A DNA stretch of 64,000 nucleotides from Pseudonocardia sp. T1-2H (GTDB lineage Bacteria; Actinomycetota; Actinomycetes; Mycobacteriales; Pseudonocardiaceae), in contig NZ_JBBPCL010000001.1 of assembly GCF_038039215.1 (NCBI RefSeq), positions 6,200,001-6,264,000 of the forward strand, written 5' to 3'. Shown here in pieces: positions 14,291 to 40,461 of this stretch. Made by a program: the position numbers and the translations under genes. The notes below the pieces were generated by a model. That model did not search any database, was not told the origin of the DNA, and was given only the letters and a program-made list of their open reading frames with translations. Position 1 is the stretch's first letter. Each line of letters opens with the position of its first letter.

Positions 14291-14335
14291 GCGGAAACTC
14301 CTCGGAGAAGATGCGCCGTGAGCGGGTCAGGTGGG

Positions 14336-15226: not shown

Positions 15227-15263
15227 GAGGGACCTTCCCTGAATGGTCTGGGCGCGGGGCGGC

Positions 15264-16042: not shown

Positions 16043-16043
16043 G

Positions 16044-19999: not shown

Positions 20000-20016
20000 G
20001 AAGCCTCCCATGACCG

Positions 20017-21984: not shown

Positions 21985-22014
21985 ACCCGGGCCGACGACC
22001 GCCGCGGGACGCCC

Positions 22015-22045: not shown

Positions 22046-22141
22046 CCGCCGGGTGGTGCGGGTGGAACGCCGGGAGGGAACCGGGCCGGACCTCGTCCCG
22101 GCCTCGGGCGGACGGCCCGGTCCGCTCCCGGACGACGGGCG

Positions 22142-22619: not shown

Positions 22620-23491
22620 GCGCTCACTCCACTTCGCTCGACGGCCGCGGCCACCGCCCTCTTGACCAACAGCTGGATCATGTCCCGCCGGTACGACGCG
22701 GGAGCGTGGACGTCATCGGTCGGGTGGACGCTCGCCGTGACCGTGGCCGCGGCGGCGTCGATCGCGTCCGCCGTCGGCTGCGCGCCGGCGAGGACCTCCT
22801 CCGCGGCGTGCAGCCGGAGCGGGACCGAGGCCACCCCGCTCGCGGCCACCCGGATCAGGTCGACCGAGCCGTCGGCAGCGAGATGGACCGCGGCCATCGC
22901 GCCCACGATGGCGAAGTCGCCGTGCCTGCGGGCCAGTTCCTCGACCGCGACACCGGTTCCCGCGGGCAACCGCGGAATCCGGATCTCGGTCAGCACCTCG
23001 TTGTACTCCATCGCCGTGGTGAACGTGCCGGTGAAGTAGTCCTCGGCCGCGATGGTGCGGGTCCCGTTCGGACCCTCCACCACCAACTCGCCACCCAGGC
23101 CGGTGACCAGCGCCGGAAGCTCCGCGGCCGAGTCTGCGTGGGCCACGCTGCCGCCGACCGTCCCGCGGTTGCGGTTGGTGATGTGGCCGACGTGGTGCAG
23201 GACCTGGGGCAGCAGCGGGACCTCGGCCGCGACGACGTCGCTGATCTCCACGTCGCGCTGCCGGGTCATCGCCCCGATCACCAGGCTCCCGTTGTCCACG
23301 CGGATCTGGTCCAGCCCGCTGATCCGGTTGATGTCGATCAGGATCGACGGCCGGGCGAGCCGGAAGCTCATCAGCGGGACGAGGCTCTGCCCGCCGGCGA
23401 GCACCTTGGCGTCCGAGCCGTGCTCGGTGAGCAGTGCGACCGCTTCCCTGACGTCACCGGCGCGGGCGTACTTGACAGCTGGGGGCTTCAC
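22616..23491 (-). CDS. Molybdenum hydroxylase FAD-binding medium subunit, set 2
   Basis: A 291-residue FAD subunit. FAD contacts AGGQSLVPLMSFRLARP and TVGGSVAHADSAAELPALV are typical, followed by RRHGDFAIVGAMA. It overlaps the large subunit gene upstream and the small subunit gene downstream by four bases each, so L, M and S are translationally coupled. The gene is intact. As in set 1, length argues against an extra [4Fe-4S] domain. Confidence 0.92.
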   Translation of the reverse strand: MKPPAVKYARAGDVREAVALLTEHGSDAKVLAGGQSLVPLMSFRLARPSILIDINRISGLDQIRVDNGSLVIGAMTRQRDVEISDVVAAEVPLLPQVLHHVGHITNRNRGTVGGSVAHADSAAELPALVTGLGGELVVEGPNGTRTIAAEDYFTGTFTTAMEYNEVLTEIRIPRLPAGTGVAVEELARRHGDFAIVGAMAAVHLAADGSVDLIRVAASGVASVPLRLHAAEEVLAGAQPTADAIDAAAATVTASVHPTDDVHAPASYRRDMIQLLVKRAVAAAVERSGVSA

Positions 23492-26315: not shown

Positions 26316-28652
26316 TCATCGACGGTTGGCCCGCAGGGCCGCGAGCACGGCGAACGGGGAGAGCGGCAGGTCGGTCACCGTCACCCCGATCGCGTCGGAC
26401 ACGGCGCAGGCGAGCACCGCCGCCACCGGCACGATGGGCGGCTCGGCCACACCCTTGGCGCCGTAGGGCCCGGTCGGGAGCGGGTTCTCCAGGATCTCCA
26501 GGTCGATCGGCGGCACGTCCGGTGCGGTGGGGATCCGGTAGGTCTCCAGGTTCCGGTCGAGCACCCGCCCGTCCGGCCCGAGCCGCAGGTCCTCGTACAG
26601 CGCGTAGCCGATGCCCTGCGCCACGGCGCCGTTGACCTGGCCGACGACCATCGCCGGGTTGATCGCCCGGCCGACGTCCTGGGCGACGACGTAGCTCAGC
26701 ACCGTCACCTCGCCCGTGTCCGGGTCGACCTCCACCTCCGCGGCATGGGCGTGGGAGGAGGTGGCGTTGATCGTGCTGAAGAGGCCGCCGATCACGCAGC
26801 CGGCGTCGAACTCGGGAGGCTGCGCCACGAACCGGCCGGTGGCCGACAGCGGCCCACTGGAGAACATCGCGGCCGCGCTGACCGCGGCGAGAGTGACCGA
26901 CGCGCCGGGGCTGCCCGCGACCTGCACGACGTCCCCGGCGATCTCCAGGTCCGTCTCCGCCGCCTCCAGCATGCCCGCGGCGGTCCGCAGGATCTGCTCG
27001 CGCAGCTCGCCCGCGGCCTGGCCGGCCGCGTTGCCCGCACCGTAGGTCGTGCGGCTGCCCTGGGCGCCGTTGTCGAAGCCCGCGGCGTCGGTGTCCGGGG
27101 TGGACACCAGCACGTCGTCGACGTGCACGCCGAGCCGCTCGGCGACGATCTGCCGCACCCCGGTCTGGACGGCGCCGGTGCCGATCTCCGTCGCCGCGGT
27201 GGTGACCAGGACGGTCCCGTCGTCGGACAGCGAGACGGACGCCTCGCCGGGGCCGGGGTTGGTGAGCCAGGTCAGCGGCACCACGGCCTTGCCCCGCAGC
27301 TTCCCCGGGGTCGCCGGCCGCTCCCGGTCCCACGGCGCGCGGCGCTCCACCGACTCCAGGGCCTCGACGAGGATCGGGTCGTCGAGGGCCTGGCCGTTGA
27401 CCATGGCCTCACCGGCCCGCAGCACGTTGCGCAGCCGCAGCTCGCGCCGGTCGACGCCCAGCTCGCGGGCGACGTGGTCGAGGTGCGACTCCTGGGCGAA
27501 CACGACGTACGGCCCGCCGACCCCGCGGAACGCCGCCGTCGGTGCGGTGTTGGTGTAGACCACGCGGGTGCGGTACCGGGCGAGCGGGATGCGGTAGGTC
27601 GACCCGAGGGCGAGCGCGGGCAGCCCGGCGCAGATGACCGTCTCGCCGCTGGAGTTCGCGCCGTTGTCGGTGAGGACGTCCGCCTCCTGGGCGAGGATGC
27701 GGCCCTCCGCGTCGACGGCGGTGCGCAGCCGCAGGACCGCGTTCTCCCGCGGGCCGGCGGTGGCCAGCTCCTCGGCGCGGCTGTTGACCAGCCGGACCGG
27801 GCGCCCCGAGCGTCGGGCGAGCAGGCACGCCATCGGCTCCAGCATCGCGTCGAGTTTGCCGCCGAACCCGCCGCCGACGGTCGGCACGAGCACGCGGACC
27901 GCCGACGGCCGGATGCCCAGCAGCTCCGCGGTGCGGCTGCGGACCGAGTGCGGGAACTGGGTGGAGGTGTGCACGGTGTAACGGCCGGTGGTGTACCGGG
28001 CCACGCAGGCGTGTGGCTCCAGCGGCGTCTGGTGCTGGCGGGGGACGCGGAACTCGTCGCTCACGACCCGGTGCGCCGCGGCGAACGCGGCGTTCCACTC
28101 CTCGTCCGTGCCCTTCTCCAGGCGGGCGTCCCAGGCGACGTTGCCGCTGCGGAAACCGTCGACCGGCGCCGCGTAGTCCGCCCAGCCGGGGTGGATCAGC
28201 CGGGCGTCGGGCGCCACGGCCGCGTCCAGGTCGACGACCGGGTCGAGCGGCTCGAGCTCCAGCTCGATCGCGGCCAGCGCCGCCGCCGCCTGCTCGGGCG
28301 TCTCGGCGGCGACGGCGGCGATCGGCTCCCCGGCGTAGCGGACGATGTCGATCGCGAACACGGTCTGGTCCTTGACCACCAGCATGCCCGACAGGGCGGG
28401 CGCGTCCGCCCCGGTCACGACGGCGTGCACGCCCGGCAGGCCGGCCGCGGCGGAGGTGTCGAGCCGGATGATCCGCGCGGCGGAGAGCTCCGCGCGGAGG
28501 ACCGCGGCGTGCAGCATGCCCGCCTCGGCGAGGTCGACGGTGTAGACGGCCGCGCCGCGGACCTTGGCGTCGGCGTCCGGCCTGGGGATCGAGCGGCCGA
28601 CGGCGCCGCTCGCGGGGACGGCACGGGCGGCGGGCTCGGACAGCGCGGTCAC
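26316..28652 (-). CDS. Molybdenum hydroxylase large subunit (xanthine dehydrogenase type), set 3
   Basis: A 778-residue molybdopterin subunit, last gene of the 12-gene operon. Motifs: IPRPDADAKVRGAAVYTVDL, TVGGGFGGKLDAMLEP near residue 262, AAFRGVGGPYVVFAQESHLD near 378 and GAKGVAEPPIVPVAAVLACA near 731 with the catalytic Glu. The AFRGVGG loop is closest to xanthine-dehydrogenase-like and other heterocycle hydroxylases. GTG at 28652 overlaps the small subunit stop (GTGA) and has GGGAGG upstream. Gene order here is M-S-L, unlike set 2, so the three sets are not recent duplicates of one operon. Confidence 0.92.
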   Translation of the reverse strand: MTALSEPAARAVPASGAVGRSIPRPDADAKVRGAAVYTVDLAEAGMLHAAVLRAELSAARIIRLDTSAAAGLPGVHAVVTGADAPALSGMLVVKDQTVFAIDIVRYAGEPIAAVAAETPEQAAAALAAIELELEPLDPVVDLDAAVAPDARLIHPGWADYAAPVDGFRSGNVAWDARLEKGTDEEWNAAFAAAHRVVSDEFRVPRQHQTPLEPHACVARYTTGRYTVHTSTQFPHSVRSRTAELLGIRPSAVRVLVPTVGGGFGGKLDAMLEPMACLLARRSGRPVRLVNSRAEELATAGPRENAVLRLRTAVDAEGRILAQEADVLTDNGANSSGETVICAGLPALALGSTYRIPLARYRTRVVYTNTAPTAAFRGVGGPYVVFAQESHLDHVARELGVDRRELRLRNVLRAGEAMVNGQALDDPILVEALESVERRAPWDRERPATPGKLRGKAVVPLTWLTNPGPGEASVSLSDDGTVLVTTAATEIGTGAVQTGVRQIVAERLGVHVDDVLVSTPDTDAAGFDNGAQGSRTTYGAGNAAGQAAGELREQILRTAAGMLEAAETDLEIAGDVVQVAGSPGASVTLAAVSAAAMFSSGPLSATGRFVAQPPEFDAGCVIGGLFSTINATSSHAHAAEVEVDPDTGEVTVLSYVVAQDVGRAINPAMVVGQVNGAVAQGIGYALYEDLRLGPDGRVLDRNLETYRIPTAPDVPPIDLEILENPLPTGPYGAKGVAEPPIVPVAAVLACAVSDAIGVTVTDLPLSPFAVLAALRANRR

Positions 28653-29134
28653 AGCCGGTCCTCCCTCGGGGTCGGGGCGGCCGCCGCCGCGGTCAGGGCC
28701 GCGTCGACGATGGTGTGGTAGCCGGTGCACCGGCAGAGGTTGCCGGTGAGCGCCTCGCGGACCTGCCCGGCGTCCGGATCCGCCGTGGTGTCGAGGAACG
28801 TGCTCAGGGTCATCACCATGCCGGGGGTGCAGGCCCCGCACTGCACGCCGTGGCAGGAGACCATCGCCTCCTGCACGGGGTGCAGCGGCCCGTCCGGCGC
28901 GCTGAGCCCCTCGACGGTGGTGACCGGCTCGGCCTCGGCGAGGGCGACCGGCAGCAGGCAGGACGCGACGGCCCGGTCGCCGAGCCGGACGGTGCAGGAA
29001 CCGCAGCGGCCCGTCCCGCAGGAGACCTTCGTGCCGCGCAGGTGCAGGTGGTCGCGCAGCACGTCGGAGAGCGGGGTCCCGCCGGGCACGTCGACCTCGG
29101 CGGCGCGGCCGTTGACGGTCAGCCGGTAGTTCAC
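28649..29134 (-). CDS. Molybdenum hydroxylase [2Fe-2S] small subunit, set 3
   Basis: A 161-residue subunit. Cluster ligands are Cys39, Cys44, Cys47 and Cys59 (SCGTGRCGSCTVRL), and Cys99, Cys102, Cys134 and Cys136 (QCGACTPGMV, CRCTGY). The GTG start overlaps the FAD subunit stop and the stop overlaps the large subunit start. The variant SCGTGRCGSC, rather than GCEHGVCG as in sets 1 and 2, marks a distinct lineage. Confidence 0.92.
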   Translation of the reverse strand: MNYRLTVNGRAAEVDVPGGTPLSDVLRDHLHLRGTKVSCGTGRCGSCTVRLGDRAVASCLLPVALAEAEPVTTVEGLSAPDGPLHPVQEAMVSCHGVQCGACTPGMVMTLSTFLDTTADPDAGQVREALTGNLCRCTGYHTIVDAALTAAAAAPTPREDRL

Positions 29135-30012
29135 GGGGCCTCCCCGGTGTCGTGGTCGGTGGCCGGGTCGGTGAGGCAGTCGGCCGCGGCGCGGGCGAAC
29201 ACCGCGGGCAGGACCTCGAGGCGGTACCAGCCGGGTGCCAGCAGGTCGTCCCGCGGGGTCAGGACGGCGGCCGCGGCCAGCCCGGCGGCGCGGGCGGCGG
29301 CCTCGTCGAGGGTGGTGCCGGCGAGCGCCGCCTCGGCCTCGGGACACCGCCGGGCACGGGCCTCCACCGACCCGACGGCGACGCGGACCGCGGACGCGAC
29401 GCCCGCCTCGTCGAGATCGGCGGAGATCGCCACGGACACCAGCGCGTACTCGCCGCCGCCGCGCACGGTCAGCCGGGCGTACCCGGAGCGGCGGCCCGCC
29501 GGGGCGGAGGCGGTGACGGAGACCAGCACCGCGGCCGGGTCGGTGGTGTCGCCGTGGGCCGACCGCAGGTAGCCGTCGACCCCGATCCGGTGCCGTCCGG
29601 CCGCGGTCGCGACCTCCACTCCTGCGTCGAGCGCGAGCAGGGCCGGGACCAGGTCGGCCTCGGCGAACCCGCGGGCGTTGAGGTTCCCGCCGAGCGTCGC
29701 CACGTTGCGGACCTGCGGGAACGCCGACGTCCGCGCGGCCGTGCCCAGGGCGCGCAGCGCGGGGGGCAGGGGCGCGGCGGCCAGCTCGGCGTGGGTCGTG
29801 AGGGCGCCCCACGTCCCGGCAGCGACGCCGCGCAGCTCGGCGATGCGGTGCAGTGAGACGAAGGTCCCCGGCGGCGTGGGCGACCGCATGAGCCAGGTCC
29901 CTCCGGCGAGCGCGGCGCCGTCGGGGCCCAGCTCGGCCAGCCGGCGCACCGCCTCGTCGACCGACCCCGGCACCTCCACCCGGGGCCGGGCCAGATGGGT
30001 GGGGGCCGTCAT
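29131..30012 (-). CDS. Molybdenum hydroxylase FAD-binding medium subunit, set 3
   Basis: A 293-residue FAD subunit. AGGTWLMRSPTPPGTFVSL replaces the AGGQSL form of sets 1 and 2, and NVATLGGNLNARGFAEADL is the second FAD loop. This is closer to HcrB/XdhB-type subunits of ring hydroxylases. It overlaps its neighbours on both sides by four bases, so it is co-translated with the REDY/HapK-like gene and the small subunit. Confidence 0.9.
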   Translation of the reverse strand: MTAPTHLARPRVEVPGSVDEAVRRLAELGPDGAALAGGTWLMRSPTPPGTFVSLHRIAELRGVAAGTWGALTTHAELAAAPLPPALRALGTAARTSAFPQVRNVATLGGNLNARGFAEADLVPALLALDAGVEVATAAGRHRIGVDGYLRSAHGDTTDPAAVLVSVTASAPAGRRSGYARLTVRGGGEYALVSVAISADLDEAGVASAVRVAVGSVEARARRCPEAEAALAGTTLDEAAARAAGLAAAAVLTPRDDLLAPGWYRLEVLPAVFARAAADCLTDPATDHDTGEAP

Positions 30013-30323
30013 TGCACGACCGTCCCGGCCACCGCCTCGAAGGCGCTGATGTAGCTGCGGAACTGGTCGAAGAAGCTCGCCGGGGTCGCGGCGATCGACT
30101 TCTGGTAGGTCGCCAGGTCACTGATCTCGATGATCTCGAGGTAGCTGTAGGAGGGGGTGGCCACGCCGTCCATCACCGGGCCCTCCAGCCGGACCACCCG
30201 GTACCGCTCGACGCCGGGCAGCGCCTCCGCGGTCGGCTGGTCGACCTCACGGACCCACTGCTCGTAGGCCTCGCGCACGTCCTCGGATGCCAAGGTGGTC
30301 AGGAAGAACACGACTTCACTCAT
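30009..30323 (-). CDS. Dimeric alpha/beta-barrel protein, REDY/HapK-like
   Basis: A 104-residue protein: EVVFFLTTLASEDVREAYEQ, WVREVDQPTAEALPGVERYR, then YSYLEIIEISDLATYQKSIA. The pattern resembles the ferredoxin-like dimeric barrels annotated as REDY or HapK-like proteins. They are found in pigment and catabolic clusters and their chemistry is mostly unknown. Placement between an LLM flavoprotein and a molybdenum hydroxylase suggests a small enzyme or sensor acting on an intermediate. No catalytic residue can be assigned. Confidence 0.7.
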   Translation of the reverse strand: MSEVVFFLTTLASEDVREAYEQWVREVDQPTAEALPGVERYRVVRLEGPVMDGVATPSYSYLEIIEISDLATYQKSIAATPASFFDQFRSYISAFEAVAGTVVQ

Positions 30324-30346
30324 GGGAGCAGGCCTTTCGGGTCAGG

Positions 30347-31339
30347 TCAGAGGTGGGGCAGGACGTCGGCAGCGGTCAGCTCGAGGATCGCGTCGTTGGC
30401 CTCGGCCGGGAACGGGGCCAGGACGACGGAGGTGGCGCCGGCGTCGAGGAACGCGCGGATCTTGCCGACGCACTCCTTCGGCGTCCCGGCGATGGTGAAG
30501 GTGTCCACCCACTCCTCGGGGAGGGCGGCGGCGATCCGGTCGAGGTCGCCCAGCCCGAGGATCTCCGCGAGCCGCTCGTTGATGCCGTACGCGCCGGTCA
30601 TCGGGGTCGGGCCGACCGCCTGCAGGTAGAAGGCGAGCGCCTCCCGGGCGGCGGCGCGGGCCACGTCGCCGTCGAGGTCCGCCCGGTAGATGGCGAAGGT
30701 GGGGATGCGGTGGGCGGCGGCGTCCCGGCCGGCCTTCGCGGCCCCGGCGGCGATGTGCTGCCTGGCGAACTCCAGGTACTTCGGGGCGGCGATGACGGAC
30801 ATGACCGTGCCGTCGGCGATCTCCCCGGCCAGCTCGAGCGACTTCGGTCCGATCACCCCGGCGTAGAGCTCCACACCCGCCGGGTTGGGGTGGACCAGCG
30901 AGACCTGGTCGAACACGAACGGGCCGTCGTCGATGGTCAGGGTCTCCCCGGCGAGCAGCGCGCGGGTCGTCTCGATCACGGCGCGCAGCGACCGCATGGG
31001 GGACTTCGGGTACAGCCCCATCTGCTTCGTCCAGAAGGGCACGCCGTGCCCGATGCCGGTGATCAGCCGCCCGGGGTAGGCCAGGCTGAGGGTGGAGACC
31101 TCCATCGCGGTGACGGCGGGGTGCCGCACCACGGCGGACAGGATGCCGATCCCCACCGGGATCTCGCGGGTGCCCTGCAGGGCCATGGCGGCGGTCGTCG
31201 GACCGCCGAGGAAGAAGTAGTCCTCGCTCAGCCACAGCTCGCCGAAACCGGCGTCTTCGATGCCGACACAGACGTCGACGAGCTTGTCGGGCGGGGTGGT
31301 GCCGTGCACCAGCACGCCCACAGGGGAACGGTTCGTCAT
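30347..31339 (-). CDS. LLM-class (F420 or FMN) flavin-dependent oxidoreductase
   Basis: A 330-residue TIM-barrel luciferase-like protein: SPVGVLVHGTTPPDKLVDVC, ELWLSEDYFFLGGPTTAAMA, GRLITGIGHGVPFW and FTIAGTPKECVGKIRAFLDA. The N-terminus resembles F420-dependent members (methylene-H4MPT reductase-like and related dehydrogenases). FMN-dependent monooxygenation is the other possibility. It overlaps the livM stop by four bases. In this operon it could oxidise or reduce a ring intermediate. Confidence 0.85.
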   Translation of the reverse strand: MTNRSPVGVLVHGTTPPDKLVDVCVGIEDAGFGELWLSEDYFFLGGPTTAAMALQGTREIPVGIGILSAVVRHPAVTAMEVSTLSLAYPGRLITGIGHGVPFWTKQMGLYPKSPMRSLRAVIETTRALLAGETLTIDDGPFVFDQVSLVHPNPAGVELYAGVIGPKSLELAGEIADGTVMSVIAAPKYLEFARQHIAAGAAKAGRDAAAHRIPTFAIYRADLDGDVARAAAREALAFYLQAVGPTPMTGAYGINERLAEILGLGDLDRIAAALPEEWVDTFTIAGTPKECVGKIRAFLDAGATSVVLAPFPAEANDAILELTAADVLPHL

Positions 31340-32460
31340 CGTGAGTCCTCTCGCGGGGTTTCTGGGCCGGCCCCGGCGACGGCTCCCGCCAGGGCAGTCG
31401 GTTCTGATGGGTCCGGGGTGACGGTCGGGGGCCGGTGTCGCTCGCCACGTCGGTGAGGCAGCCGCAGCTCGCGGCCGCCGGTGAGCCCGCTCGGGCGGCG
31501 CAGCAGCATCACGACCAGGACGACGCCGAGCACGACGTCGGCGACGCCGGGACGGGCCGGGACGGGCACCCCGAGCAGCGACCCGCCCTCCGCGCGGCGC
31601 AGCACCTCCGCCAGCACCGACACCGCGACGCTACCGGTCACGGCCCCGGTGAGCGAGCCTGCGCCGCCGAGCACGAGCATGGTGATGATCAGGAAGGTGT
31701 AGTCGAGGTAGAACACGTCGGGATTGATCGAGCCGAGCTGCAGGGCGAACAGCGCCCCGCCGATCCCGGTGAGGAACGCGCTCAGCACGAATCCCACCCC
31801 GCGCTGCACCGGCACCGAGATCCCCGACGCGGCCGCGGCGACCTCGTCGGACTTGGAGGCCCGCAGGCGGATCCCGAAGGACGAGCGTTGGTACGCCCAG
31901 GCGAGCAGCAGGGCCGCCAGCACCCAGCCCAGCGCCACCGGCATCGTCGTGCTCGTCGGTATCGACGAGAGACCCTTCTGCCCCCGGGTCACCGACTGCC
32001 ACTGGGCGGCGACGGCGGAGAAGGCGATCAGCAGCGACACCGTCGCGAGCCCGGCGGAGAGCCCGCCGATCCGGGACAGCGGTACCGCCACCACCACGGC
32101 CACGAGCGCCGCGACCAGCCCACCCGCCACGACCGCGACGAACGGCCCGGCGTGCAGCTCCCGGACCAGGGCCGGGGCGTCGGGCAGCAGCTGCCCCTTG
32201 AGCCGCACCGGCAGCGCGAGCAGCCCGGCGACGTAGCCGCCGACCAGGGCGAAGCTCATGTGCCCGAACGACCAGACGCCGGAGTTGCCGACGAACACGT
32301 ACAGCCCGACGACCAGCACGACGTTGACGAGCCCGCCCACCGCCAGCCGCTCCAGCGACGCCGGCCCGGTGGTGGCGAGCAGCGCCACCACGACGATCCC
32401 CGCGAACAGCGCCGACGGGACGCCGAGGGCGCCGCCGGCCCGTCGAAGAAACCCGTTCAC
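31336..32460 (-). CDS. Branched-chain-type ABC transporter permease (LivM family)
   Basis: A 374-residue permease with about ten hydrophobic segments: GIVVVALLATTGPASLERLA, VNVVLVVGLYVFVGNSGVWS, FGHMSFALVGGYVAGLLALP. The conserved coupling region is YQRSSFGIRLRASKSDEVAA. A Pro/Arg-rich cytoplasmic tail of about 50 residues extends the C-terminus. The GTG start overlaps the livH stop. It pairs with LivH to form the channel. Confidence 0.9.
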   Translation of the reverse strand: MNGFLRRAGGALGVPSALFAGIVVVALLATTGPASLERLAVGGLVNVVLVVGLYVFVGNSGVWSFGHMSFALVGGYVAGLLALPVRLKGQLLPDAPALVRELHAGPFVAVVAGGLVAALVAVVVAVPLSRIGGLSAGLATVSLLIAFSAVAAQWQSVTRGQKGLSSIPTSTTMPVALGWVLAALLLAWAYQRSSFGIRLRASKSDEVAAAASGISVPVQRGVGFVLSAFLTGIGGALFALQLGSINPDVFYLDYTFLIITMLVLGGAGSLTGAVTGSVAVSVLAEVLRRAEGGSLLGVPVPARPGVADVVLGVVLVVMLLRRPSGLTGGRELRLPHRRGERHRPPTVTPDPSEPTALAGAVAGAGPETPREDSR

Positions 32461-33338
32461 ACCCGCACCCCCTGGCCGGACCGGATCAGTCCCTGCGGCC
32501 GGACGACCAGCAGGCAGAACACGGCCGCGAACAGCAGTGCGTCGCGGAACGGGGCGAGCCCCACCGGGAGCACCTCCTGCAGGAGCTGGCTCGCCGCGCC
32601 GAGCACGAACCCGCCGGCGACGGCCCCGCGCAGGCTGGACAGCCCGCCCACGACCGCCGCGATGAGTCCGAACAGCACGGCGTTGAACCCGAACGTCGGG
32701 GTGACCGACCCGTTGGCGCCCAGCAGCAGCACGGCCGCGGCGGCGGCCAGCACCCCGCTGACCGCGAACGCCAGGCTGATGACCCGGTTGGCCGCCACGC
32801 CCAGCAACCGGGCGGTGGCGAAGTCCTCGGCCGCCGCCCGCATCCGCAGGCCCGCCGGGGTGCGGGTGAGGAAGAGCCCGAGCCCGCCGATGAGCACCAC
32901 AACGACGACCACCGTGACCACGTTGATCTTGGGCAGGTAGATCTGCCCGAAGGTCCAGCTCTCCCGGAACACGGGATCGACGTCGGTCGAGCGGGGCAGC
33001 GCACCGAACAGGCTCTCCGCGAGGCTGGCCAGCAGCACGCTCACCGCGAACGAGGTGACGAGCATCGTCTCGGGCGCGGCGGAGCGGATCCCACGGAAGG
33101 CGACCAGCTCCAGCAGCATCGCGAGCGCGACGCACACGGCGACGGTGAGCACCAGCCGCACCACCAGCGGCAGCGAGGCCGTGAACACCAGGGTGTACCC
33201 GCCCGCCATGATCAGGCTGGAATGCGCGAAGTTGACCAGGCGCAGGATGCCGAACACCATCGCCACGCCGAGCGCGTAGAGGGCGTACAGCCCGCCGAGG
33301 TTCAGCGCGTTGACCAGCGCCTGCACCAGCGTCGTCAC
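32457..33338 (-). CDS. Branched-chain-type ABC transporter permease (LivH family)
   Basis: A 293-residue permease. LVQALVNALNLGGLYALYAL, GVAMVFGILRLVNFAHSSLI and MAGGY form the typical LivH start, and RTPAGLRMRAAAEDFATARL contacts the ATPases. GTG at 33338 overlaps the livF stop (GTGA). In-frame sequence continues far upstream but is antisense-like Arg/Gly-rich text over the ATPase genes and is not coding. Confidence 0.92.
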   Translation of the reverse strand: MTTLVQALVNALNLGGLYALYALGVAMVFGILRLVNFAHSSLIMAGGYTLVFTASLPLVVRLVLTVAVCVALAMLLELVAFRGIRSAAPETMLVTSFAVSVLLASLAESLFGALPRSTDVDPVFRESWTFGQIYLPKINVVTVVVVVVLIGGLGLFLTRTPAGLRMRAAAEDFATARLLGVAANRVISLAFAVSGVLAAAAAVLLLGANGSVTPTFGFNAVLFGLIAAVVGGLSSLRGAVAGGFVLGAASQLLQEVLPVGLAPFRDALLFAAVFCLLVVRPQGLIRSGQGVRV

Positions 33339-34080
33339 GGGGTCACCCCCGCCTCGCCGAGGTACTCCGCCGCCATCGCCGCGCCGCCGCCCAGTTCGTC
33401 GGCGGTGCCACTGCGCACGATCCGGCCGGTCCGCAGGACCGACGTCCGGTCGGCCAGCTCGACGGCGCGGGTCGCGTTCTGCTCGACCAGCACGATCGTC
33501 AGTCCCTCCCGGCGCAGCTGCGCCACGGTCTCGAACACCAGGTCGACCAGCCGCGGCGCCAGGCCGAGCGACGGCTCGTCGAGCAGCAGCAGCCGGGGTC
33601 GGGACATCAGCGCCCGCGCGATGGCGAGCTGCTGCTGCTCGCCGCCGGAGAGCAGCCCGGCCTGCTGGCCGTAGCGGTCCCGCAGGATCGGGAACCGGTC
33701 GAGCTGGCGGTCGAGGTCCGCGGCGACCCCGGCGGCGTCGCGCCGGATCGTCGCGCCGAGCGCGAGGTTCTCCGCCACGGTCAGCGAGGTGAAGATGTTG
33801 CGGCCCTCCGGCACCAGCGCCACACCGTGCCGGACGACCCGCTCGGGCGCCAGCCCGGACACGACGTCGCCGGCCACCGTGACCGTGCCCGCAGCCGCGC
33901 GGACCAGCCCGCTGACGGCGGCGAGCGCGGAGGACTTCCCGGCACCGTTCGGGCCGACGAGGGCCACCAACTCGCCCTCGTCGACGTCGAGGTCGATGCT
34001 GTGCAGGGCGGTCACGGACCCGTAGCGGACGGTGAGCCCCCGGACCGAGAGCAGGGGACAGGGCGCAGGGGCTCAGCCAT
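33335..34080 (-). CDS. Branched-chain-type ABC transporter ATPase (LivF family), one indel
   Basis: A 248-residue ATPase once corrected: GPNGAGKSS (Walker A), LLSGGEQQQLAIARALM (signature), LLLLDEPSLGL (Walker B). The natural start is ATG 34080, overlapping the livG stop (ATGGCTGA) and giving MAEPLRPVP-LLSVRGLTVR. The C-run complementary to GGGG at 34054-34057 is one base short, which breaks the frame. A start at codon 34015 would delete the first beta-strand and is less likely. Confidence 0.87.
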
Positions 34081-34816
34081 GCGCCACCGCCTGCCCGGCC
34101 GCCTCGCTGCCCAGGTAGGCCTCGATCACCGCCGGGTCGGCCCGGACCTCGGCCGGGTCTCCCGTGGCGAGCGTGCGGCCGTGGTCGATGACGTGCAGCC
34201 GGTCGCACAGCCGCATGATCAGCCGCATGTCGTGCTCGATCACCACCAACCCGCACCCGGACTGTTCCGGGACCGCCCGCAGCCGGTCGAGGAGCTCGTC
34301 GCTCTCCTCCTCGTTGAGGCCTGCCGCGGGCTCGTCGAGCACGACGTAGCGCGGCTCGCCGACCAGCGCCCTGGCAATGCCCAGCCGGCGCTCCAGCCCG
34401 TAGGGCAGCGCGGTGGCCTCGACCCCGGCCAGCCCCGTCAGGTCGAACCGCTCCAGCAGCTCGCCGGTCGAGCGGCGTGCGGCCGCGCGGCCCAGGCCGA
34501 CCCCGAGCGCCGCGGCCTCGAGGTTCTGCGCCACCGTCATCCCGGCGAACAGCCGCACGTTCTGGAAGGTGCGCCGGACGCCGAACCTGCTCAGCCGCTG
34601 CGGCGACCAGCCCGTCACGTCCCGGCCGTCGACCGCGACGGTGCCCGCGTGCCGCTGGAAGCCGGTGAGGACGTTCGTCAGCGTCGTCTTGCCGGCCCCG
34701 TTCGGGCCGATCAGGCCCAGGATCTCCCCGGGCCGCACGGCCAGCTCGATGTCCTCGCACGCGGTCAGCCCGGCGAACCGGACCGTGACCCCGGACGCCC
34801 GGAGCTTCCCGGTCAC
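34073..34816 (-). CDS. Branched-chain-type ABC transporter ATPase (LivG family)
   Basis: A 247-residue ATPase. GPNGAGKTT is Walker A, YVVLDEPAAGL is Walker B, and the LivG block RTFQNVRLFAGMTVAQNLEA is present. The signature reads LPYGLERRLGIARAL, a degenerate LSGGQ that is usual for LivG. It lies 21 nt after the binding-protein gene and its stop overlaps the livF start, so the importer is complete and coupled. Confidence 0.93.
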   Translation of the reverse strand: MTGKLRASGVTVRFAGLTACEDIELAVRPGEILGLIGPNGAGKTTLTNVLTGFQRHAGTVAVDGRDVTGWSPQRLSRFGVRRTFQNVRLFAGMTVAQNLEAAALGVGLGRAAARRSTGELLERFDLTGLAGVEATALPYGLERRLGIARALVGEPRYVVLDEPAAGLNEEESDELLDRLRAVPEQSGCGLVVIEHDMRLIMRLCDRLHVIDHGRTLATGDPAEVRADPAVIEAYLGSEAAGQAVAHG

Positions 34817-34837
34817 CCGTCCCCACCGGCGTGTCCA

Positions 34838-36040
34838 TCAGCAGGGAGCCTGGCCCATGAGGGACTGCACGGTGCGCTGGCCGATCACCTTCGGCGTGCC
34901 GTCGGTGTAGGTCTTGAGCAGCATCGGGCGGCCCGACGGGATGTGGCAGTCGGCGGTAAAGGTGGTCGGCCCGAGCAGCAGGTCCTCGTTCGTGAACCTG
35001 TCCAGCTCGGCCTTGACCGCCGCGGTGTCGGTGGAGCCGGCCCGCTCGACGGCGCGGGCGATCGCCTGGACGATCGAGTACCCCTCGAGCGGGTAGTTCG
35101 CGCTGGCGGCGGGCTCGCCCGTCCGCTGCTGGAGGCGGGTGAAGAACTCGTTGCGCGCGGGGACCGGGTCGTCGCCGTTCAGGCCGCCGGCGGACAGGAT
35201 GGTGAAGTCCGAGAGCCCGGGCACCGCGTCGGTCCAGTAGGTGCCGTCGAACGCGGCCGAGCCGAGCAGCGGCTGGGTCAGGCCCGCGGCGCGGAGCTGG
35301 CGCAGCAGGGTGGCGCCGCCGGGCGGGTAGCTGGCCACGAGGATGACGTCGGGGTTGGCGCGCTGCGCGGCCGCGATCTGCGAGGCGGCCGACTCGTCGC
35401 CGTTCTGGTAGGTCTCCTTGCCCACCAGCGTCCCGCCGAGGTCCGTCCACCGCTTCTCGAAGAAGTCCCCGACGACCTGGGAGTACTCCAGGCCCTGGTC
35501 GGTGATCACGAACGGCCGGCTGTAGCCCTTCTCCTTCGCGTACTCCGCGAGCAGCGCTCCCTCGGTGCGCGAGCCGGGGTAGAAGTTGTAGGTCATCGGG
35601 CCGACGCCGTCGACGCCGTAGAGCGGGCCGCCGGCGCAGCCCAGCGCGATCTTCCCGGCGTCGTTGGCGACCCGGGCGGCGGGCCCGCCGATGTCGAAGT
35701 CACAGGAGGTCACCACGAACTCCGCCCCCTGGTCGAGGACGTCCTGTGCCGCGGTCTGGATCTTCGATACGTCGGTCTCGTTGTTGGTGGTGATCATCTT
35801 GAGTTGCCGGCCGAGGACGCCGCCCCGGGCGTTGATGTCGTCGACGGCCAGCTGCATGCCCTGCTGTACCGGGATGTCGAAGACGGACATGAAGCCGGTG
35901 GTCCCGGCCGTCTGGCCGATCACGATGGGCTCGGCGGAGCCGGGCTCACCGCGGGCTGCTCCTCCGGAGGAGCAGCCCGCGGCGAGCGCGGCGAGGACTG
36001 TCAGGGGCGCGATCGCGCGCCACGCGCGGGTGTGTCGCAT
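34838..36040 (-). CDS. Substrate-binding lipoprotein of the branched-chain-type ABC importer (LivK family)
   Basis: A 400-residue type I periplasmic-binding lipoprotein. MRHTRAWRAIAPLTVLAALA, then AG-Cys23, is a clear lipobox. The mature protein starts EPIVIGQTAGTTG and has AVDDINARGGVLGRQLKMIT, VVTSCDFDIGGPAARVANDA and VASYPPGGATLLRQLRAAGL. Family members bind amino acids, amides, urea and aromatic acids. With DUF917, HyuA and a molybdenum hydroxylase in the same operon, a nitrogen-containing ring compound is a better guess than leucine. Confidence 0.9.
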   Translation of the reverse strand: MRHTRAWRAIAPLTVLAALAAGCSSGGAARGEPGSAEPIVIGQTAGTTGFMSVFDIPVQQGMQLAVDDINARGGVLGRQLKMITTNNETDVSKIQTAAQDVLDQGAEFVVTSCDFDIGGPAARVANDAGKIALGCAGGPLYGVDGVGPMTYNFYPGSRTEGALLAEYAKEKGYSRPFVITDQGLEYSQVVGDFFEKRWTDLGGTLVGKETYQNGDESAASQIAAAQRANPDVILVASYPPGGATLLRQLRAAGLTQPLLGSAAFDGTYWTDAVPGLSDFTILSAGGLNGDDPVPARNEFFTRLQQRTGEPAASANYPLEGYSIVQAIARAVERAGSTDTAAVKAELDRFTNEDLLLGPTTFTADCHIPSGRPMLLKTYTDGTPKVIGQRTVQSLMGQAPC

Positions 36041-36162
36041 CGGGTGGGGCTCCGTTTCGGGGGAAGGGGGCACTGCGTCGTGCGGGGGACTCGCAGGGGC
36101 GTGCTCCCGGGCGGGGCTCCCGGGTCGTGCGGCGTGGCGCGCCAGGTGGTCGCGCCCCGTGG

Positions 36163-37728
36163 TCACATCCGGCCGAGGGGCCCGGCGGCCTTCACCCGGA
36201 TCCGGACCACCGGTTCGGTGAGGTACGCCATCGGGACCTCCTCGACCTCGACGATCTCGACGGCCGCCGGGTCGGCGCCGGCGCTGATCGCCTCGTCCTT
36301 CGCGGCCGCGCAGGCGAGGTCCAGGACCTCCTGACGGTCCCGGCCCGCCAGCTTGAACACCTTGTCCACCTGGCCGGACACCGAGGCGATGGCGGCGCCG
36401 ATGGCGTTGGCCACGTCGTAGTTCTCCGGCCGCACGATCTGCGCGACGCCCGGCACCTCGGGCGGGAGGATGACGCTCCCGCCGCCGACGACCACCAGCG
36501 GGACCGGTCCGCGCGCGGTCTTGATCTGGTCGGTGGCGACGAAGACCAGCTCGTCGGCCCGGCGCAGCGCCGCGGCCAGCAGTTCCTCGTGCCCGGCGAC
36601 GGCGCCGGCGTCGCCCATGCTCGCGCGGCCGCCGGCGACGGCGGCGTCGGACAGCGTGGGGGTGGCGCCCCCGAAGACCAGGGCCTCCTCGCGGAGGCGG
36701 TAGCCGACGCTCTCCGGGCCGACCCGGACGTCCTCGGCCGACCCGGTGACCCGCGTGCCGCCCCCGACGGCGATGGCCACCAGGTCGGGCATCCGGAAGT
36801 TGGTGCGCACGCCGCCGATGTCGGTCGGGGTGCTCGACTCCCGGGGGAACCCGTTGAGCAGCATGCCGACGTCGCTGGAGGTGCCGCCGACGTCGACCAC
36901 CACGGCGTCGCTGACGTCCGCCAGGTAACAGGCGCCGCGCATGCTGTTCGCCGGGCCGCTGCCGATGGTGAGCACCGGGAACCGCAGCACGTAGTCCAGG
37001 CCCATGAGGGTGCCGTCGTTCTGCGTCAGGAAGGCGACGGCGTCGATCCCGTTCTGTGCCAGAGCGGCGGTGAGCCCGTGCACCACCTTGTGCGCGACGC
37101 CGACGAGCGCGGCGTTGAGGATGCAGGCGTTCTCCCGCTCCAGCAGGCCGAGCGCGCCGATCCCCTGGGAGAGGCTGACGGGGATGTCCGGGCCGAGCAC
37201 CTCCCGCACGACCTGCTCGGCCTCCTGCTCGTGGTCCCCCGAGACCGGCGAGAACACCCCGGAGATGGCGACCGCCTCCGCGCTGTCGCCGACCTTCTCG
37301 AGGAAGCGGGCCACCTCGTCGCGGCCGAAGGGGACCAGCGGCACCCCGGTGACCTCGCTGCCGCCCGGCACGACCACCTCACCCGCGGACACCACCTGCC
37401 GCAGGTCGTCCGGCCAGTCGGAGAAGGGCGGGATCGACACGGTGGCCGGCGCCCCGATCCGGACGACGGCGACCTTGAGCAGGTCGCGGCGCTCCAGGAT
37501 CGCGTTGGTGGCGTGGGTGGTGCCGAGCATGACGTGGGTGATCCGCTCGACGGGCTGGTCGATCTGCCCCAGCACCGCCTCCAGCGCGCTGGTGATACCG
37601 CTGGTGAGATCGGGCGTCGTCGGGGTCTTGTGCTTGGCGAGCAAGCGGTTCGCGGAGTCGAGGACGACGGCGTCGGTGTTGGTGCCGCCGACGTCGATCC
37701 CGATCCTGAGGTCAACCGACCCGGGCAT
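36163..37728 (-). CDS. Hydantoinase/oxoprolinase family protein (HyuA type)
   Basis: A 521-residue protein of the N-methylhydantoinase A/5-oxoprolinase A family, ATP-dependent enzymes that open cyclic amides or imides. LRIGIDVGGTNTDAVVLDSA is the actin-like phosphate loop, HVMLGTTHATNAILERRDLL and LTIGSGPANSMRGACYLADV follow, and VVVDVGGTSSDVGMLLNGFP is the second nucleotide motif. Length matches short HyuA proteins encoded next to DUF917. It overlaps the DUF917 gene by 17 bases. No separate HyuB subunit is present, which fits HyuA/DUF917 pairs of unknown substrate. Confidence 0.9.
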   Translation of the reverse strand: MPGSVDLRIGIDVGGTNTDAVVLDSANRLLAKHKTPTTPDLTSGITSALEAVLGQIDQPVERITHVMLGTTHATNAILERRDLLKVAVVRIGAPATVSIPPFSDWPDDLRQVVSAGEVVVPGGSEVTGVPLVPFGRDEVARFLEKVGDSAEAVAISGVFSPVSGDHEQEAEQVVREVLGPDIPVSLSQGIGALGLLERENACILNAALVGVAHKVVHGLTAALAQNGIDAVAFLTQNDGTLMGLDYVLRFPVLTIGSGPANSMRGACYLADVSDAVVVDVGGTSSDVGMLLNGFPRESSTPTDIGGVRTNFRMPDLVAIAVGGGTRVTGSAEDVRVGPESVGYRLREEALVFGGATPTLSDAAVAGGRASMGDAGAVAGHEELLAAALRRADELVFVATDQIKTARGPVPLVVVGGGSVILPPEVPGVAQIVRPENYDVANAIGAAIASVSGQVDKVFKLAGRDRQEVLDLACAAAKDEAISAGADPAAVEIVEVEEVPMAYLTEPVVRIRVKAAGPLGRM

Positions 37729-38803
37729 GGCGGTCCTCCACGGGGACGTAGTCGAGGTCGTAGCCGAAGGCGCGCGGGCCGACCACGGACAGGCCGCGCT
37801 CGCTGCGCCACTGGTCGGGCGCGCGGAACACGCCGACGACCACGCGCTGCCCGTAGCGGATGTGCTCGGTGACGATGCCGCGCGCGGAGTGCCGGTCGAG
37901 CAGGGTGATGATGTCCGGGACGGTGGCCAGCGCCTCGCCGTCCTCCATCGCGACCAGGTTCTCGTTCTGGAACTCGATGCGCACCAGCCGCCCGGCGTCG
38001 TGCTCGATGCCCTCGACCACCGCCGACCCGCGGACGAAGCCGCCCGCCGTGCGCCGGTCGACGTCGACGACCTTCCCGGTGAGCAGGGGGTACAGGTCGA
38101 CCTGGGCGTCCAGGGCGCGGAAGGGGTCGTCGGTCGCGGTGCGGATGGTGCGGCCGATCTGCACCGCGCGGGACACGGTGCCGCGCAGCAGCGGGGTGGC
38201 CGCGGTGCGGGCGTCCATCGGGTAGAGGCCGGCGCAGGCGCAGCCCCCGAGCGTGGAGACGGCGTTGCGGGCCAGGCGCTCCAGCCACACGTTGTCGCGC
38301 GGCTCGAAGGTGATCACCTGCGAGCGCTCGTCGACCACGACGCACGGCCAGGAGGGGATGTCGTAGAGGTGCGGGGTGCACATCTGCAGCTCGGGGAAGG
38401 CGCGGCCCATCAGGTCGCCGTCCACCAGCGGCAGGCCGGCGTGCGCGGCCCAGGCGACCGGCAGGACCCCGTTGATCCCGCCCATCTCCAACGGCATCAG
38501 CGCGGCGACCGGGCGGTTCAGCCGCGCCTCGAACGCGGCGCGGATGACGTCGCCCTCGTTGCCGTTGGGGATCTTCTCGACCATCACCGTCGGCGCGCCG
38601 ATCATGCCCGCCGGCACGACCAGGTCGTCGGCGGCCAGCGAGTCGAGGTCGATCAGCGGCACCGGGCCGGTGCGCCGCACGGCGTTCAGCGCCATGAGCA
38701 GGCCGATCCGCGGATCACCACCACCGCCACCCGCCAGCACCGTGCAGCCGACGGACAGGTCCACCAGGTCCTGCTCGTCGAGCTTGGGAGGGTCGTTCGT
38801 CAT
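37712..38803 (-). CDS. DUF917 family protein (S-methyl-thiohydantoin desulfurase-like)
   Basis: A 363-residue protein. DLVDLSVGCTVLAGGGGGDP near the N-terminus, IGAPTVMVEKIPNG and ALMPLEMGGINGVLPVAWAA, LPLVDGDLMGRAFPELQM are the DUF917 hallmarks. The family is named after a suspected desulfurase of S-methyl thiohydantoins and commonly pairs with HyuA. It is the first gene of the operon, with ATG at 38803 preceded by a weak GGA. Exact reaction unproven; the pairing suggests action on a hydantoin-like five-membered ring. Confidence 0.88.
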   Translation of the reverse strand: MTNDPPKLDEQDLVDLSVGCTVLAGGGGGDPRIGLLMALNAVRRTGPVPLIDLDSLAADDLVVPAGMIGAPTVMVEKIPNGNEGDVIRAAFEARLNRPVAALMPLEMGGINGVLPVAWAAHAGLPLVDGDLMGRAFPELQMCTPHLYDIPSWPCVVVDERSQVITFEPRDNVWLERLARNAVSTLGGCACAGLYPMDARTAATPLLRGTVSRAVQIGRTIRTATDDPFRALDAQVDLYPLLTGKVVDVDRRTAGGFVRGSAVVEGIEHDAGRLVRIEFQNENLVAMEDGEALATVPDIITLLDRHSARGIVTEHIRYGQRVVVGVFRAPDQWRSERGLSVVGPRAFGYDLDYVPVEDRHARVG

Positions 38804-38862: not shown

Positions 38863-38880
38863 TCGGATTGTGCAATCCGA
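38863..38880. promoter_or_regulatory. Perfect palindrome between PucR and the DUF917 operon
   Basis: TCGGATTG-TG-CAATCCGA has perfect 8-bp arms with a two-base centre. It lies in the 149-bp divergent region, 60 bases from the DUF917 ATG and 73 from the PucR GTG, and is the best operator candidate for PucR. Confidence 0.6.
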
Positions 38881-38952
38881 CGAAGTGTGTCGGAAAAGGG
38901 ACGTCAATATTTCTTGTGCACTCACACCCTGTATGCAGGTCATACTGCGCGG

Positions 38953-40461
38953 GTGAGCACGCTCGAATCGGTCGTGGACCTGCTGGCCCACCGGCACCCC
39001 GGTGCCGTCGAGGTGCTGGTCGGCCCGACCGACCGGCGGGTCGCGGACGTACGCCTCGTCGAGCAGGTCGACCAGGTCGACGACGCCCCGCCGGGTGCCC
39101 TCGTCGTCCTCGAGCGGGGGCTGGCCGCGTTGACCGGCGACTACCGGTTCGACGTGGTGGTCCGCCGGGCCGCCGCCCGCGAGGTCGCCGCGCTGGTCGT
39201 GGTGCTCCCGGAGGACGCCAGGTTGTCGCTCACGGCACTGGCGCTGGCCCGGCGCGCCGGGGTCGCCGTCATCCGGCTCGCACCGGAGGTCGACCTCACC
39301 GCCGCGGTGGGCACCATGGTCCGCCAGGCCACGGATCGGCTCAGCGTGACCGTGGACCGGGCGCGGGCGGTCTGCGAGACGATCGACGGGCGGGCCCTGG
39401 ACAGCGTCGACGTGCTGCTCGACCGGGTCGGCATGCTGCTCGGGCGGACGGTCCGCATCGGGCCCCGCCCCGAGGACGACCAGGTGCTCGCCGTCCCCGC
39501 CGGGCCCGACCACGACGGCTGGCTGTGGACCGAGCGCCCCGGCGACCCGGACGCCGACGCGCTGCTGGAGATGGTGCTGTGGCGGATCGCCGCGGAGACC
39601 ACCCGGCTCACCGCCGAACGGGTGCGCGCCGAGCAGGTGTCCCGTCGCTCGGCCGGGGAGGTGCTGGTCCAGCTGGTCGAGGCCGACCGCGGGGCCCGCG
39701 CCACCATCGCCCCGTCGGCCCGGCGGCTGGGCATCCCCGTCGACGGCTGGCACGTCGTCACCCGGATCGAGCCGGACAACCTGCTCGAGGTCACCGGCGA
39801 CGACGTCGCGGCCTACGAGATCCGCGACGAGCTGGCCTCGCTCGCCCTGCAGGCCGCCGCGAGCATGCCCGGCACCTGGCACGTCGGGCACGACCCGGCC
39901 GTCGTCCTGCTGCTGTGGACCGGCGACAACCCGCCCCGCCAGGAGACCCACGCCCGGCTCCACCGCCAGCTCGACTTCGTGCTGAAGGCCCTGGTCGGGC
40001 GGGTACCCGGACTGCGGATGTTCTGCGGGACCGGCACCGCGCGGCCGGGCATCGCCGGGCTGGCGAGCAGCGCGACCGAGGCCCGCCTGGCCGTGTCGTC
40101 GGCGCGGTTCCGCCGGCGCAGCAACGTCGCGGTGCACTTCGACTCCGTCGGCATGCGCGCCACCCTGCTCGAGTGGTACGGCTCGCCGACGGTGCAGCAG
40201 TCGATCGACCGGCTCTTCGCCCCGATCGCCGACCTCACCCCGGCCAAGCGCCAGGCGATGATCGACACCGTCTGCACCTACCTCGACCTGCAGGGCTCGG
40301 CGGCCCGCACCGCGGAGGTGCTGCACCTGCACCGCAACGCGGTGCGCTACCGGGTGCAACGCGCCTTCGAGGTGCTCGGGATCGACGAGGACGACGCGGA
40401 CCAGCGGCTGTTCCTGCATCTCGCCTGCCGAGCCCAGCGGCTCGGCGACATCAGCGCCTGA
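38953..40461 (+). CDS. PucR family transcriptional regulator
   Basis: A 502-residue regulator. The N-terminal half (DLLAHRHPGAVEVLVGPTDR, ALTGDYRFDVVVRRAAAREV) resembles PucR ligand-sensing regions; a CdaR/GGDEF-like middle follows. The C-terminal HTH_30 domain reads TYLDLQGSAARTAEVLHLHR, NAVRYRVQRAFEVLGID. PucR proteins are usually activators of purine, amide or other nitrogen catabolism. It is divergent from the DUF917-HyuA-Liv-LLM-Mo operon and probably controls it. The GTG at 38953 is the first plausible start; upstream in-frame residues overlap the promoter region. Confidence 0.88.
   Translation: MSTLESVVDLLAHRHPGAVEVLVGPTDRRVADVRLVEQVDQVDDAPPGALVVLERGLAALTGDYRFDVVVRRAAAREVAALVVVLPEDARLSLTALALARRAGVAVIRLAPEVDLTAAVGTMVRQATDRLSVTVDRARAVCETIDGRALDSVDVLLDRVGMLLGRTVRIGPRPEDDQVLAVPAGPDHDGWLWTERPGDPDADALLEMVLWRIAAETTRLTAERVRAEQVSRRSAGEVLVQLVEADRGARATIAPSARRLGIPVDGWHVVTRIEPDNLLEVTGDDVAAYEIRDELASLALQAAASMPGTWHVGHDPAVVLLLWTGDNPPRQETHARLHRQLDFVLKALVGRVPGLRMFCGTGTARPGIAGLASSATEARLAVSSARFRRRSNVAVHFDSVGMRATLLEWYGSPTVQQSIDRLFAPIADLTPAKRQAMIDTVCTYLDLQGSAARTAEVLHLHRNAVRYRVQRAFEVLGIDEDDADQRLFLHLACRAQRLGDISA

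Follow-up and report, generated by a model that had tools for sequence, protein, structure and literature searches.

Two hydroxylations of imidazole give hydantoin, a ring of the substrate class of the HyuA-type enzyme family, and ATP-dependent cyclic-amide hydrolases of the HyuA/HyuB type have been described that act as N-methylhydantoinase, caprolactamase or 5-oxoprolinase. Among the three-subunit molybdenum (Mo) hydroxylases of the xanthine oxidase family, quinoline 2-oxidoreductase (QorMSL) hydroxylates an N-heteroaromatic ring. In one report, genes for DUF917 proteins and hydantoin-type enzymes are described as enriched in cyclodipeptide-oxidase clusters of the non-CDPS type (PMC11055893). 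We analysed a window of 64,000 nucleotides of the soil-type actinobacterium Pseudonocardia sp. T1-2H (positions 6,200,001 to 6,264,000 of contig NZ_JBBPCL010000001.1, a 6.6-Mb contig from a genome of the same genus as Pseudonocardia dioxanivorans), which carries a long, probably switch-controlled cluster whose parts are known individually. Our results indicate a conserved, probably co-regulated cluster of an N-heterocycle type with an optional importer.

An initial annotation, made from the sequence of the window, had proposed a PucR-linked operon of twelve genes forming a complete import-and-degradation route for an N-heterocycle. All twelve genes are present in the families named, follow one another head to tail along the minus strand from 38803 to 26316 beside a divergent regulator, and passed the Pfam cut-offs. 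The first encodes a DUF917 protein (37712..38803; PF06032 181 bits, PF20906 211 bits), a family called S-Me-THD in current Pfam naming, and the second a HyuA-like ATPase subunit of the hydantoinase/oxoprolinase type with 521 amino acids (36163..37728; PF05378, PF01968). These are followed by a Liv importer with a complete subunit set according to Pfam: the substrate-binding lipoprotein LivK (34838..36040; PF13458 172 bits), the ATPases LivG (34073..34816; PF00005, PF12399) and LivF (33335..34063; PF00005), and the permeases LivH (32457..33338) and LivM (31336..32460; PF02653 in both). An LLM-class protein (30347..31339; PF00296), a HapK-like protein with a dimeric alpha/beta-barrel-type fold (30009..30323; PF11639) and the first Mo hydroxylase complete the set, the last composed of the flavin adenine dinucleotide (FAD) subunit CoxM1 (29131..30012; PF00941, PF03450), the 2x[2Fe-2S] subunit CoxS1 (28649..29134; PF01799, PF00111) and the Mo-cofactor subunit CoxL1 (26316..28652; PF20256, PF02738, PF01315). 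The cluster does not end at 26316, where the initial annotation had closed it: after a gap of 434 bases, the same strand encodes a second Mo-cofactor subunit, CoxL2 (23488..25881), with its FAD subunit CoxM2 (22616..23491; PF00941, PF03450) and [2Fe-2S] subunit CoxS2 (22142..22619), and this second Mo hydroxylase is conserved with the rest. Six real four-base overlaps join LivF/LivH (33335), LivH/LivM (32457), LivM/LLM (31336), HapK/CoxM (30009), CoxM/CoxS (29131) and CoxS/CoxL (28649). Not all of the many overlaps first reported survived, as DUF917 and HyuA overlap by 17 bases, and the overlap of HyuA with LivK very probably stems from a miscalled start codon. Both the relatives of LivK and its lipoprotein signal (LAAGC) place the start of this gene at 36040, which leaves a gap of 122 bases. 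Scans of 21.7-39.2 kb for sigma-70 promoters and terminators gave no matches. The same gene order is found in Pseudonocardia RYN_114 (96-97% DNA identity) and in P. oceani (about 90%); the twelve-gene arrangement is therefore not a product of chance.

To reveal how far this arrangement is conserved, 84,980 species genomes were searched with six short peptide patterns of CoxL2, a search that is not exhaustive, and the flanks of the 31 loci obtained were scored by gene calling and tblastn. Eighteen loci encode a CoxL2 of at least 71% identity, and 17 of them have DUF917 and HyuA, inside the fetched stretch in 15 and just past its edge in two (P. oceani and RYN_114); the exception is L045. At identities of 61% or less, the pair was present in none of 13 loci within the stretch examined, two of these contigs being shorter than 7 kb. 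Among the 17 loci, the LLM gene occurs in all, a regulator of the PucR type in 15, a large subunit like CoxL1 (at least 47% identity) in 13, HapK in five and Liv in two, while one locus (L038) shows just the S and M part of the first Mo hydroxylase at its edge. In the neighbourhood for which the initial annotation proposed a search across actinobacteria, the core is conserved and the importer is accessory. This conserved core consists of PucR, the LLM protein, DUF917, HyuA and CoxL2-M2-S2, usually with the first Mo hydroxylase. Its carriers belong to Pseudonocardia (among others P. dioxanivorans CB1190, P. acidicola, P. bannensis, P. kujensis, P. asaccharolytica and P. oceani), Haloechinothrix, Prauserella and Tetrasphaera, together with metagenome-assembled genomes, one of them from Acidimicrobiia. 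In the DUF917 tree, the window and the DUF917 proteins of 16 of the 17 loci form a single clade (17 rows, support 100/100); the protein of L039 was too short to enter, and a second copy in L038 falls outside. Beside CoxL2 in three loci (L042:13787-17798, L038:13828-18417 and L045:5562-9000) lie genes for DUF1028, SnoaL-like, alpha/beta-hydrolase and further LLM proteins, labelled by a Pfam scan in L042, where CoxG is also found, and by likeness in the other two. As extra pathway steps they were rejected, DUF1028 being present in only 3 of the 8 genomes tested.

The regulator (38953..40461, plus strand) starts 149 bases from DUF917 and belongs to the PucR/CdaR family, with HTH_30 (67.4 bits) and GGDEF_2 (42.3 bits) over their cut-offs; the PucR link first proposed therefore stands at the level of the family, the PucR N-domain itself scoring below its cut-off (21.9 vs 33.5 bits). 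Between the two genes, the word TTGTGCA occurs twice on the plus strand, as putative regulator sites (38868..38874 and 38914..38920), and both have counterparts at equivalent positions in RYN_114 and P. oceani. It was counted 19 times in 27.4 kb of intergenic DNA upstream of cluster genes, compared with 78 times in 1,182 kb overall, in a set that counts some places twice under different loci. After clean-up, 18 clusters remained, some of which are closely related, and the word was present in the upstream intergenic DNA of 11 (14 hits), the top of 420 letter permutations, which reached 0.84 loci on average. Another word, TTGATTG, is enriched upstream of other clusters and absent from the window. 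The match to an inverse half-site peaks at a spacing of three bases (mean 3.88/7 vs 0.9-2.1 at other spacings; 0 of 2000 shuffles) in 17 hand-picked sites, and this peak marks the site as an imperfect palindrome, TTGTGCA-N3-TGCACAA. Some of the 17 sites form near-identical pairs, and one is the perfect palindrome from which the spacing was first read. When up to two mismatches were allowed, 39 such sites were found in eight genomes, nine of them at these loci: three of the five sites in P. acidicola (core, paralogue and LivK), three of five in P. bannensis (LivK, the PucR-DUF917 interval of a paralogous cluster, and a PucR-HyuA locus in which the predicted start of PucR is uncertain), and a single site in each of three others: the genome of the window, G017 (at the PucR start) and G020. 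A motif-like site near two short DUF917 fragments (G020:C4:187731) was left out of this count. The only perfect palindrome in the genome of the window lies upstream of its paralogous DUF917 cluster, and the PucR-DUF917 (one mismatch) and PucR-HyuA sites of P. bannensis were found after the motif had been fixed, the former at a cluster unused in motif finding. The regulator may bind this motif, and its presence upstream of many clusters and of both Liv cassettes that lie detached from the core makes import look co-regulated with breakdown.

For both Mo hydroxylases, the subunits scored over the Pfam cut-offs of the family, CoxS2 doing so in two frames only. The nearest solved relative of CoxL2 is quinoline 2-oxidoreductase (1t3q, 559.5 bits), compared with at most 505 bits for carbon monoxide (CO) dehydrogenases. 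CoxL2 has SYRGWG at the position of CSFR in CO dehydrogenase 8uem, and it retains the aligned glutamate, which we take to be the catalytic residue of Mo hydroxylases. CoxL1, which forms a branch separate from CoxL2 in the CoxL tree, has the loop AFRGVGG; its best match in the Protein Data Bank (PDB) is the alpha subunit of 4-hydroxybenzoyl-CoA reductase (323.5 bits), and it falls below all equivalog cut-offs. Three candidate functions were rejected. First, CoxL2 reached 589 bits against an equivalog cut-off of 991.15 for aerobic CO dehydrogenase, and both large subunits are without the loop AY.CSFR that presumably marks its active site. Second, the scores for 4-hydroxybenzoyl-CoA reductase were 513/994.55 (alpha), 65.8/404.55 (beta) and 126/257.8 bits (gamma) relative to the cut-offs; the beta subunit of this enzyme holds an extra 4Fe-4S cluster, for which CoxM1 has too few cysteines, only two being present. 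Third, xanthine or purine oxidation was not supported by the scores of CoxL1 (XdhA 463/780, PucD 401/783.65 bits). As background, the 7.0-Mb genome gave 22 matches to the Mo-cofactor domain, some of which are pieces of one gene. In P. oceani, a GcvH-like protein is encoded between CoxL1 and CoxL2 (L037:9473-9781); it cannot carry lipoate on lysine, because it has no lysine, and no such gene was seen in the window or in the remaining cluster loci compared.

The HyuA protein exceeds the cut-offs of its family domains (Hydant_A_N 124.6 bits, Hydantoinase_A 102.9 bits), and its best relatives in the PDB are N-methylhydantoinase (7hk5) and acetophenone carboxylase. A search of 41 relatives with DUF917, independent of the CoxL2 search, gave 53 matches, in which the four non-window hits at 61-65% identity all lie in clusters of this kind; the next were a paralogue in the same genome at 51% and others at no more than 48%. 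In 17 DUF917 neighbourhoods taken from these matches, the window not counted, Mo-hydroxylase genes were found within the stretch in nine and not in eight. The same genome also holds a paralogous cluster (G000:C1:2044532-2054553; L017) with two DUF917/HyuA pairs, an LLM gene and CoxMSL.

Starting from the gene families, the conserved linkage, the common upstream motif and the co-occurrence of importer and core, all of which were observed directly, we infer from the families a catabolic direction, a substrate class, F420 use and an order of reactions. LivKGFHM would import an N-heteroaromatic compound, and CoxMSL1 and CoxLMS2 would add oxygen beside the ring nitrogens to give a cyclic amide that resembles a hydantoin, a uracil or an imide. 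The LLM protein might carry out a redox step of the flavin/F420 type, and the HapK-like protein an isomerisation, a cyclisation or a helper step, while HyuA and DUF917 would open this ring in an ATP-consuming reaction. On balance we favour, with moderate confidence, a catabolic unit for an N-heteroaromatic compound under PucR/CdaR control, with uptake, two Mo hydroxylations and ATP-driven ring opening, because CoxL2 is nearest to quinoline 2-oxidoreductase, is linked to DUF917 and HyuA and co-occurs with LivK, and because the motif stands upstream of many clusters and of both detached Liv cassettes. A more specific version is put forward tentatively: an imidazole- or azine-type ring would be oxidised twice by the two Mo hydroxylases to a hydantoin- or imide-like ring and opened by HyuA-DUF917, with an F420 step, a co-regulated importer and a PucR-family regulator reading TTGTGCA-N3-TGCACAA. 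Pyridines, pyrimidines and pyrazines are possible substrate rings.

Another explanation is that the pathway degrades a ready-made cyclic amide (a lactam, hydantoin or diketopiperazine) and that the Mo hydroxylases come in at a later stage, with aldehydes or side chains as their targets instead of an aromatic ring. The links of the HyuA and DUF917 families to cyclic amides agree with this, as do the matches of CoxL1 and CoxL2 to aldehyde dehydrogenase models, which stay below cut-off, and the reported cyclodipeptide-oxidase association (PMC11055893). However, the large subunit kept with the core is closest to a hydroxylase of N-heteroaromatic rings, and two separate Mo hydroxylases stand together in 13 of the 17 clusters, so that we regard this explanation as unlikely.

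The Liv genes might also be a passenger, an amino-acid importer that landed in the operon of a pathway whose enzymes run without it. They are absent from the fetched stretch of 15 of the 17 related CoxL2 loci, and the Liv importer is an accessory, optional part of the cluster; among 62 Pseudonocardia genomes, three have it within the operon (the window, RYN_114 and P. oceani) and two have it detached (P. acidicola, G013, and P. bannensis, G045), where the cassette adjoins a flavin-reductase-like gene. Against a passenger, its position is conserved in three species, the common motif is kept upstream where it is detached, and LivK orthologues were found only in genomes with CoxL2. LivK orthologues (E <= 1e-60) were found in 5 of the 62 genomes with at most 27 candidates scored per genome, and CoxL2 at 80% or more in 12, or 16 at a looser threshold, with at most 16 scored; all five LivK genomes are among the 12 (hypergeometric 1.2e-4, a value that overstates the association because the genomes are related). 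The model of LivK, with a mean predicted local distance difference test (pLDDT) score of 91.8, is a confident binding-protein fold, to which LivJ, leucine binders and hydroxybenzoate binders, and thus aromatic-acid binders, are all close. At two positions that we take to be contacts of the amino-acid head group, LivK has glycine where 4n0q and 3ipc have threonine (glycine in 48 of 52 relatives) and alanine where 4n0q has glutamate and 4gnr aspartate (acidic in 6 of 52). The first change speaks against an amino-acid importer; at the second, the alignment to 3ipc is gapped, and the aspartate of 3ipc pairs with one kept in 50 of 52 relatives, which could stand in for the lost acidic contact. A loss of amino-acid binding is possible, on a residue reading that depends on the alignment, and we consider the passenger explanation quite improbable. 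A urea importer was rejected, UrtA-type models scoring about 45 bits against cut-offs near 493. In the protein database, relatives of LivK (79%, P0014) and HapK (78%, P0128) in P. xishanensis, both on contigs with a length of 35026, suggest another Liv-type cluster, and because of this pair and further such relatives, Liv-type clusters are probably commoner than the three found. The view of the operon as one unit of import, oxidation and ring opening is thus upheld by the conserved adjacency, the LivK co-occurrence and the motif, with Liv as a non-defining part.

The nearest PDB chains to the LLM protein are methylenetetrahydromethanopterin reductases (best 1.4e-34), and the ten best are F420 enzymes by name or, presumably, by family. 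The genome has a CofG/FbiC gene of F420 synthesis, and every NCBIfam score of the LLM protein is below its cut-off; the protein is probably F420-dependent. For the HapK-like protein (model pLDDT 93.4), Foldseek placed HapK (2jdj) first, followed by methylmuconolactone methylisomerases and DABB/EthD proteins. HapK-like genes elsewhere (L020:3778-4092, L033:13102, L036:13754 and L041:13742) adjoin LLM or close the cluster after CoxS2, and these two alternative positions hint at a role in the pathway rather than a tie to one partner. A biosynthetic or detoxifying tailoring cluster, in which LLM and HapK-like proteins would serve as they do in the formation of pigments or polyketides, would suit both the nearest solved relative, HapK of Hahella, from what is presumably a prodigiosin-type cluster, and a fold common to cyclases and SnoaB, but it is highly improbable given the importer, the PucR-type control, the ring-opening genes, a fold found just as much in catabolic muconolactone isomerases and EthD proteins, and a Pfam scan that recognised neither a synthase nor an exporter in the genes it covered.

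Several results weigh against the N-heteroaromatic reading, in addition to the inflated co-occurrence value and the limited number of candidates scored. First, the cluster genes scanned included no recognisable carbamoylase, aldehyde or coenzyme A step, or anything later in a pathway, and the initial annotation had missed the second Mo hydroxylase; its description of the route as complete is not supported. Second, thiohydantoin, named at the outset as a specific candidate substrate, was dropped, since DUF917 scored 85/450 and 62.5/440 bits relative to the NCBIfam desulfurase cut-offs; no paper on thiohydantoin desulfuration was found under those terms. Third, the motif has weaknesses: TTGATTG and some GC-rich seven-letter words also reach 11 of the 18 loci, the palindrome with up to two mismatches is absent from these loci in 3 of the 8 genomes (G053, G070 and G007), and the second half is weak in both sites of the window (3/7 and 1/7, by eye), as in the near-identical pair of RYN_114 (3/7 and 2/7). 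The palindrome is also rarer genome-wide than a reversed control (3-6 vs 10-16 per genome), and therefore only its positions speak for it. Fourth, neither the fold nor the residues of LivK decide its ligand.

The trees suggest that the modules of the cluster have different histories. In those of DUF917 and HyuA, the Liv-type clusters (window, RYN_114 and P. oceani) are placed beside Haloechinothrix, Prauserella and Tetrasphaera (100/99) and not beside the other Pseudonocardia. Their CoxL2 proteins fall among those of Pseudonocardia in the CoxL tree, where their CoxL1 proteins join the ones from other DUF917 clusters (L029/L030 and L017/L019). Compared in steps of 250 bases, the window matches RYN_114 at 93-99% DNA identity until about 25.8 kb is reached and at 77-88% through CoxL2-M2 and most of S2, whereas this tract (22141..25850) is 93-99% identical to RYN_179, which has a cluster without Liv; the last step is mixed (82% to RYN_179 and 91% to RYN_114). 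RYN_114 matches again beyond the tract, in a single alignment (13508-35879) at 94.4% overall. CoxL2-M2-S2 thus looks swapped into the cluster of the window, and an assembly chimera is possible. The other two DUF917 copies of the genome are only 51% and 45% identical, so that it yielded no donor cluster of this type. Compared with RYN_114, frame breaks affect LivF near its start, CoxS2, a glycosyltransferase-like gene (20.9-22.0 kb; 20862-22000), a third CoxL (16.0-18.5 kb), an enoyl-CoA hydratase (15.3-16.0 kb) and another gene (40539-41394). In this assembly LivF is without its usual N-terminus, and CoxS2 has its N-terminal part in one frame and its last two conserved cysteines in another. 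Because the breaks are spread over unrelated genes, assembly errors are suggested rather than decay of the pathway. The third CoxL belongs to a third Mo-hydroxylase set (12989-20011, minus strand; CoxM3, CoxS fused to CoxG, and CoxL3), kept in RYN_114 and accompanied by the enoyl-CoA hydratase and an AMP-forming ligase; we take it to resemble a unit for ring hydroxylation of CoA esters, such as furoyl-CoA dehydrogenase.

The cluster would unite poorly assigned families (DUF917 with HyuA, LLM, HapK-like and a quinoline-oxidoreductase-like Mo enzyme) in one testable regulon with a proposed operator, and could give DUF917 a role as the partner of HyuA in ATP-driven ring opening. As the importer is fused or detached while the motif is kept upstream, tests of this regulon are possible in named strains such as those of P. 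dioxanivorans, P. acidicola and P. bannensis. In agreement with the initial annotation, which knew of no described pathway with this gene combination, a literature search made mostly without subscription journals found no description in titles or abstract openings, and nothing usable was found on isonicotinate/citrazinate and imidazole pathways.

Compared with known systems, the cluster is an apparently new arrangement of familiar parts. With the HyuA/HyuB-type hydrolases named above it has the N-terminal and central domains of HyuA in common; unlike in those systems, its HyuA adjoins DUF917, with no HyuB seen among the cluster genes scanned with Pfam, and at 521 amino acids it reaches 87.5 bits against a caprolactamase cut-off of 1000. 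Its DUF917 protein combines PF06032 and PF20906, as (S-methyl) thiohydantoin desulfurases presumably do, but falls far short of the scores of the thiohydantoin and S-methyl thiohydantoin desulfurase models (NF058529, NF058532). DUF917, hydantoin-type genes and transporters are shared with the reported cyclodipeptide-oxidase clusters (PMC11055893), whereas no cyclodipeptide oxidase was recognised among the genes of the window scanned. Four other Pseudonocardia clusters (L021, L022, L026 and L027) have PucR, DUF917 and HyuA as in the window, but in them no Mo hydroxylase or LLM gene was labelled and no Liv set lies within the 20 kb fetched, L022 having a distant ABC ATPase. Finally, CoxL2 aligns with the large subunit of QorMSL (1t3q) over residues 7-787 and shares its glutamate and RG-G loop; among the genes scanned, no other quinoline-pathway gene was recognised, and the likeness to QorMSL is joined instead to DUF917/HyuA and an LLM protein.

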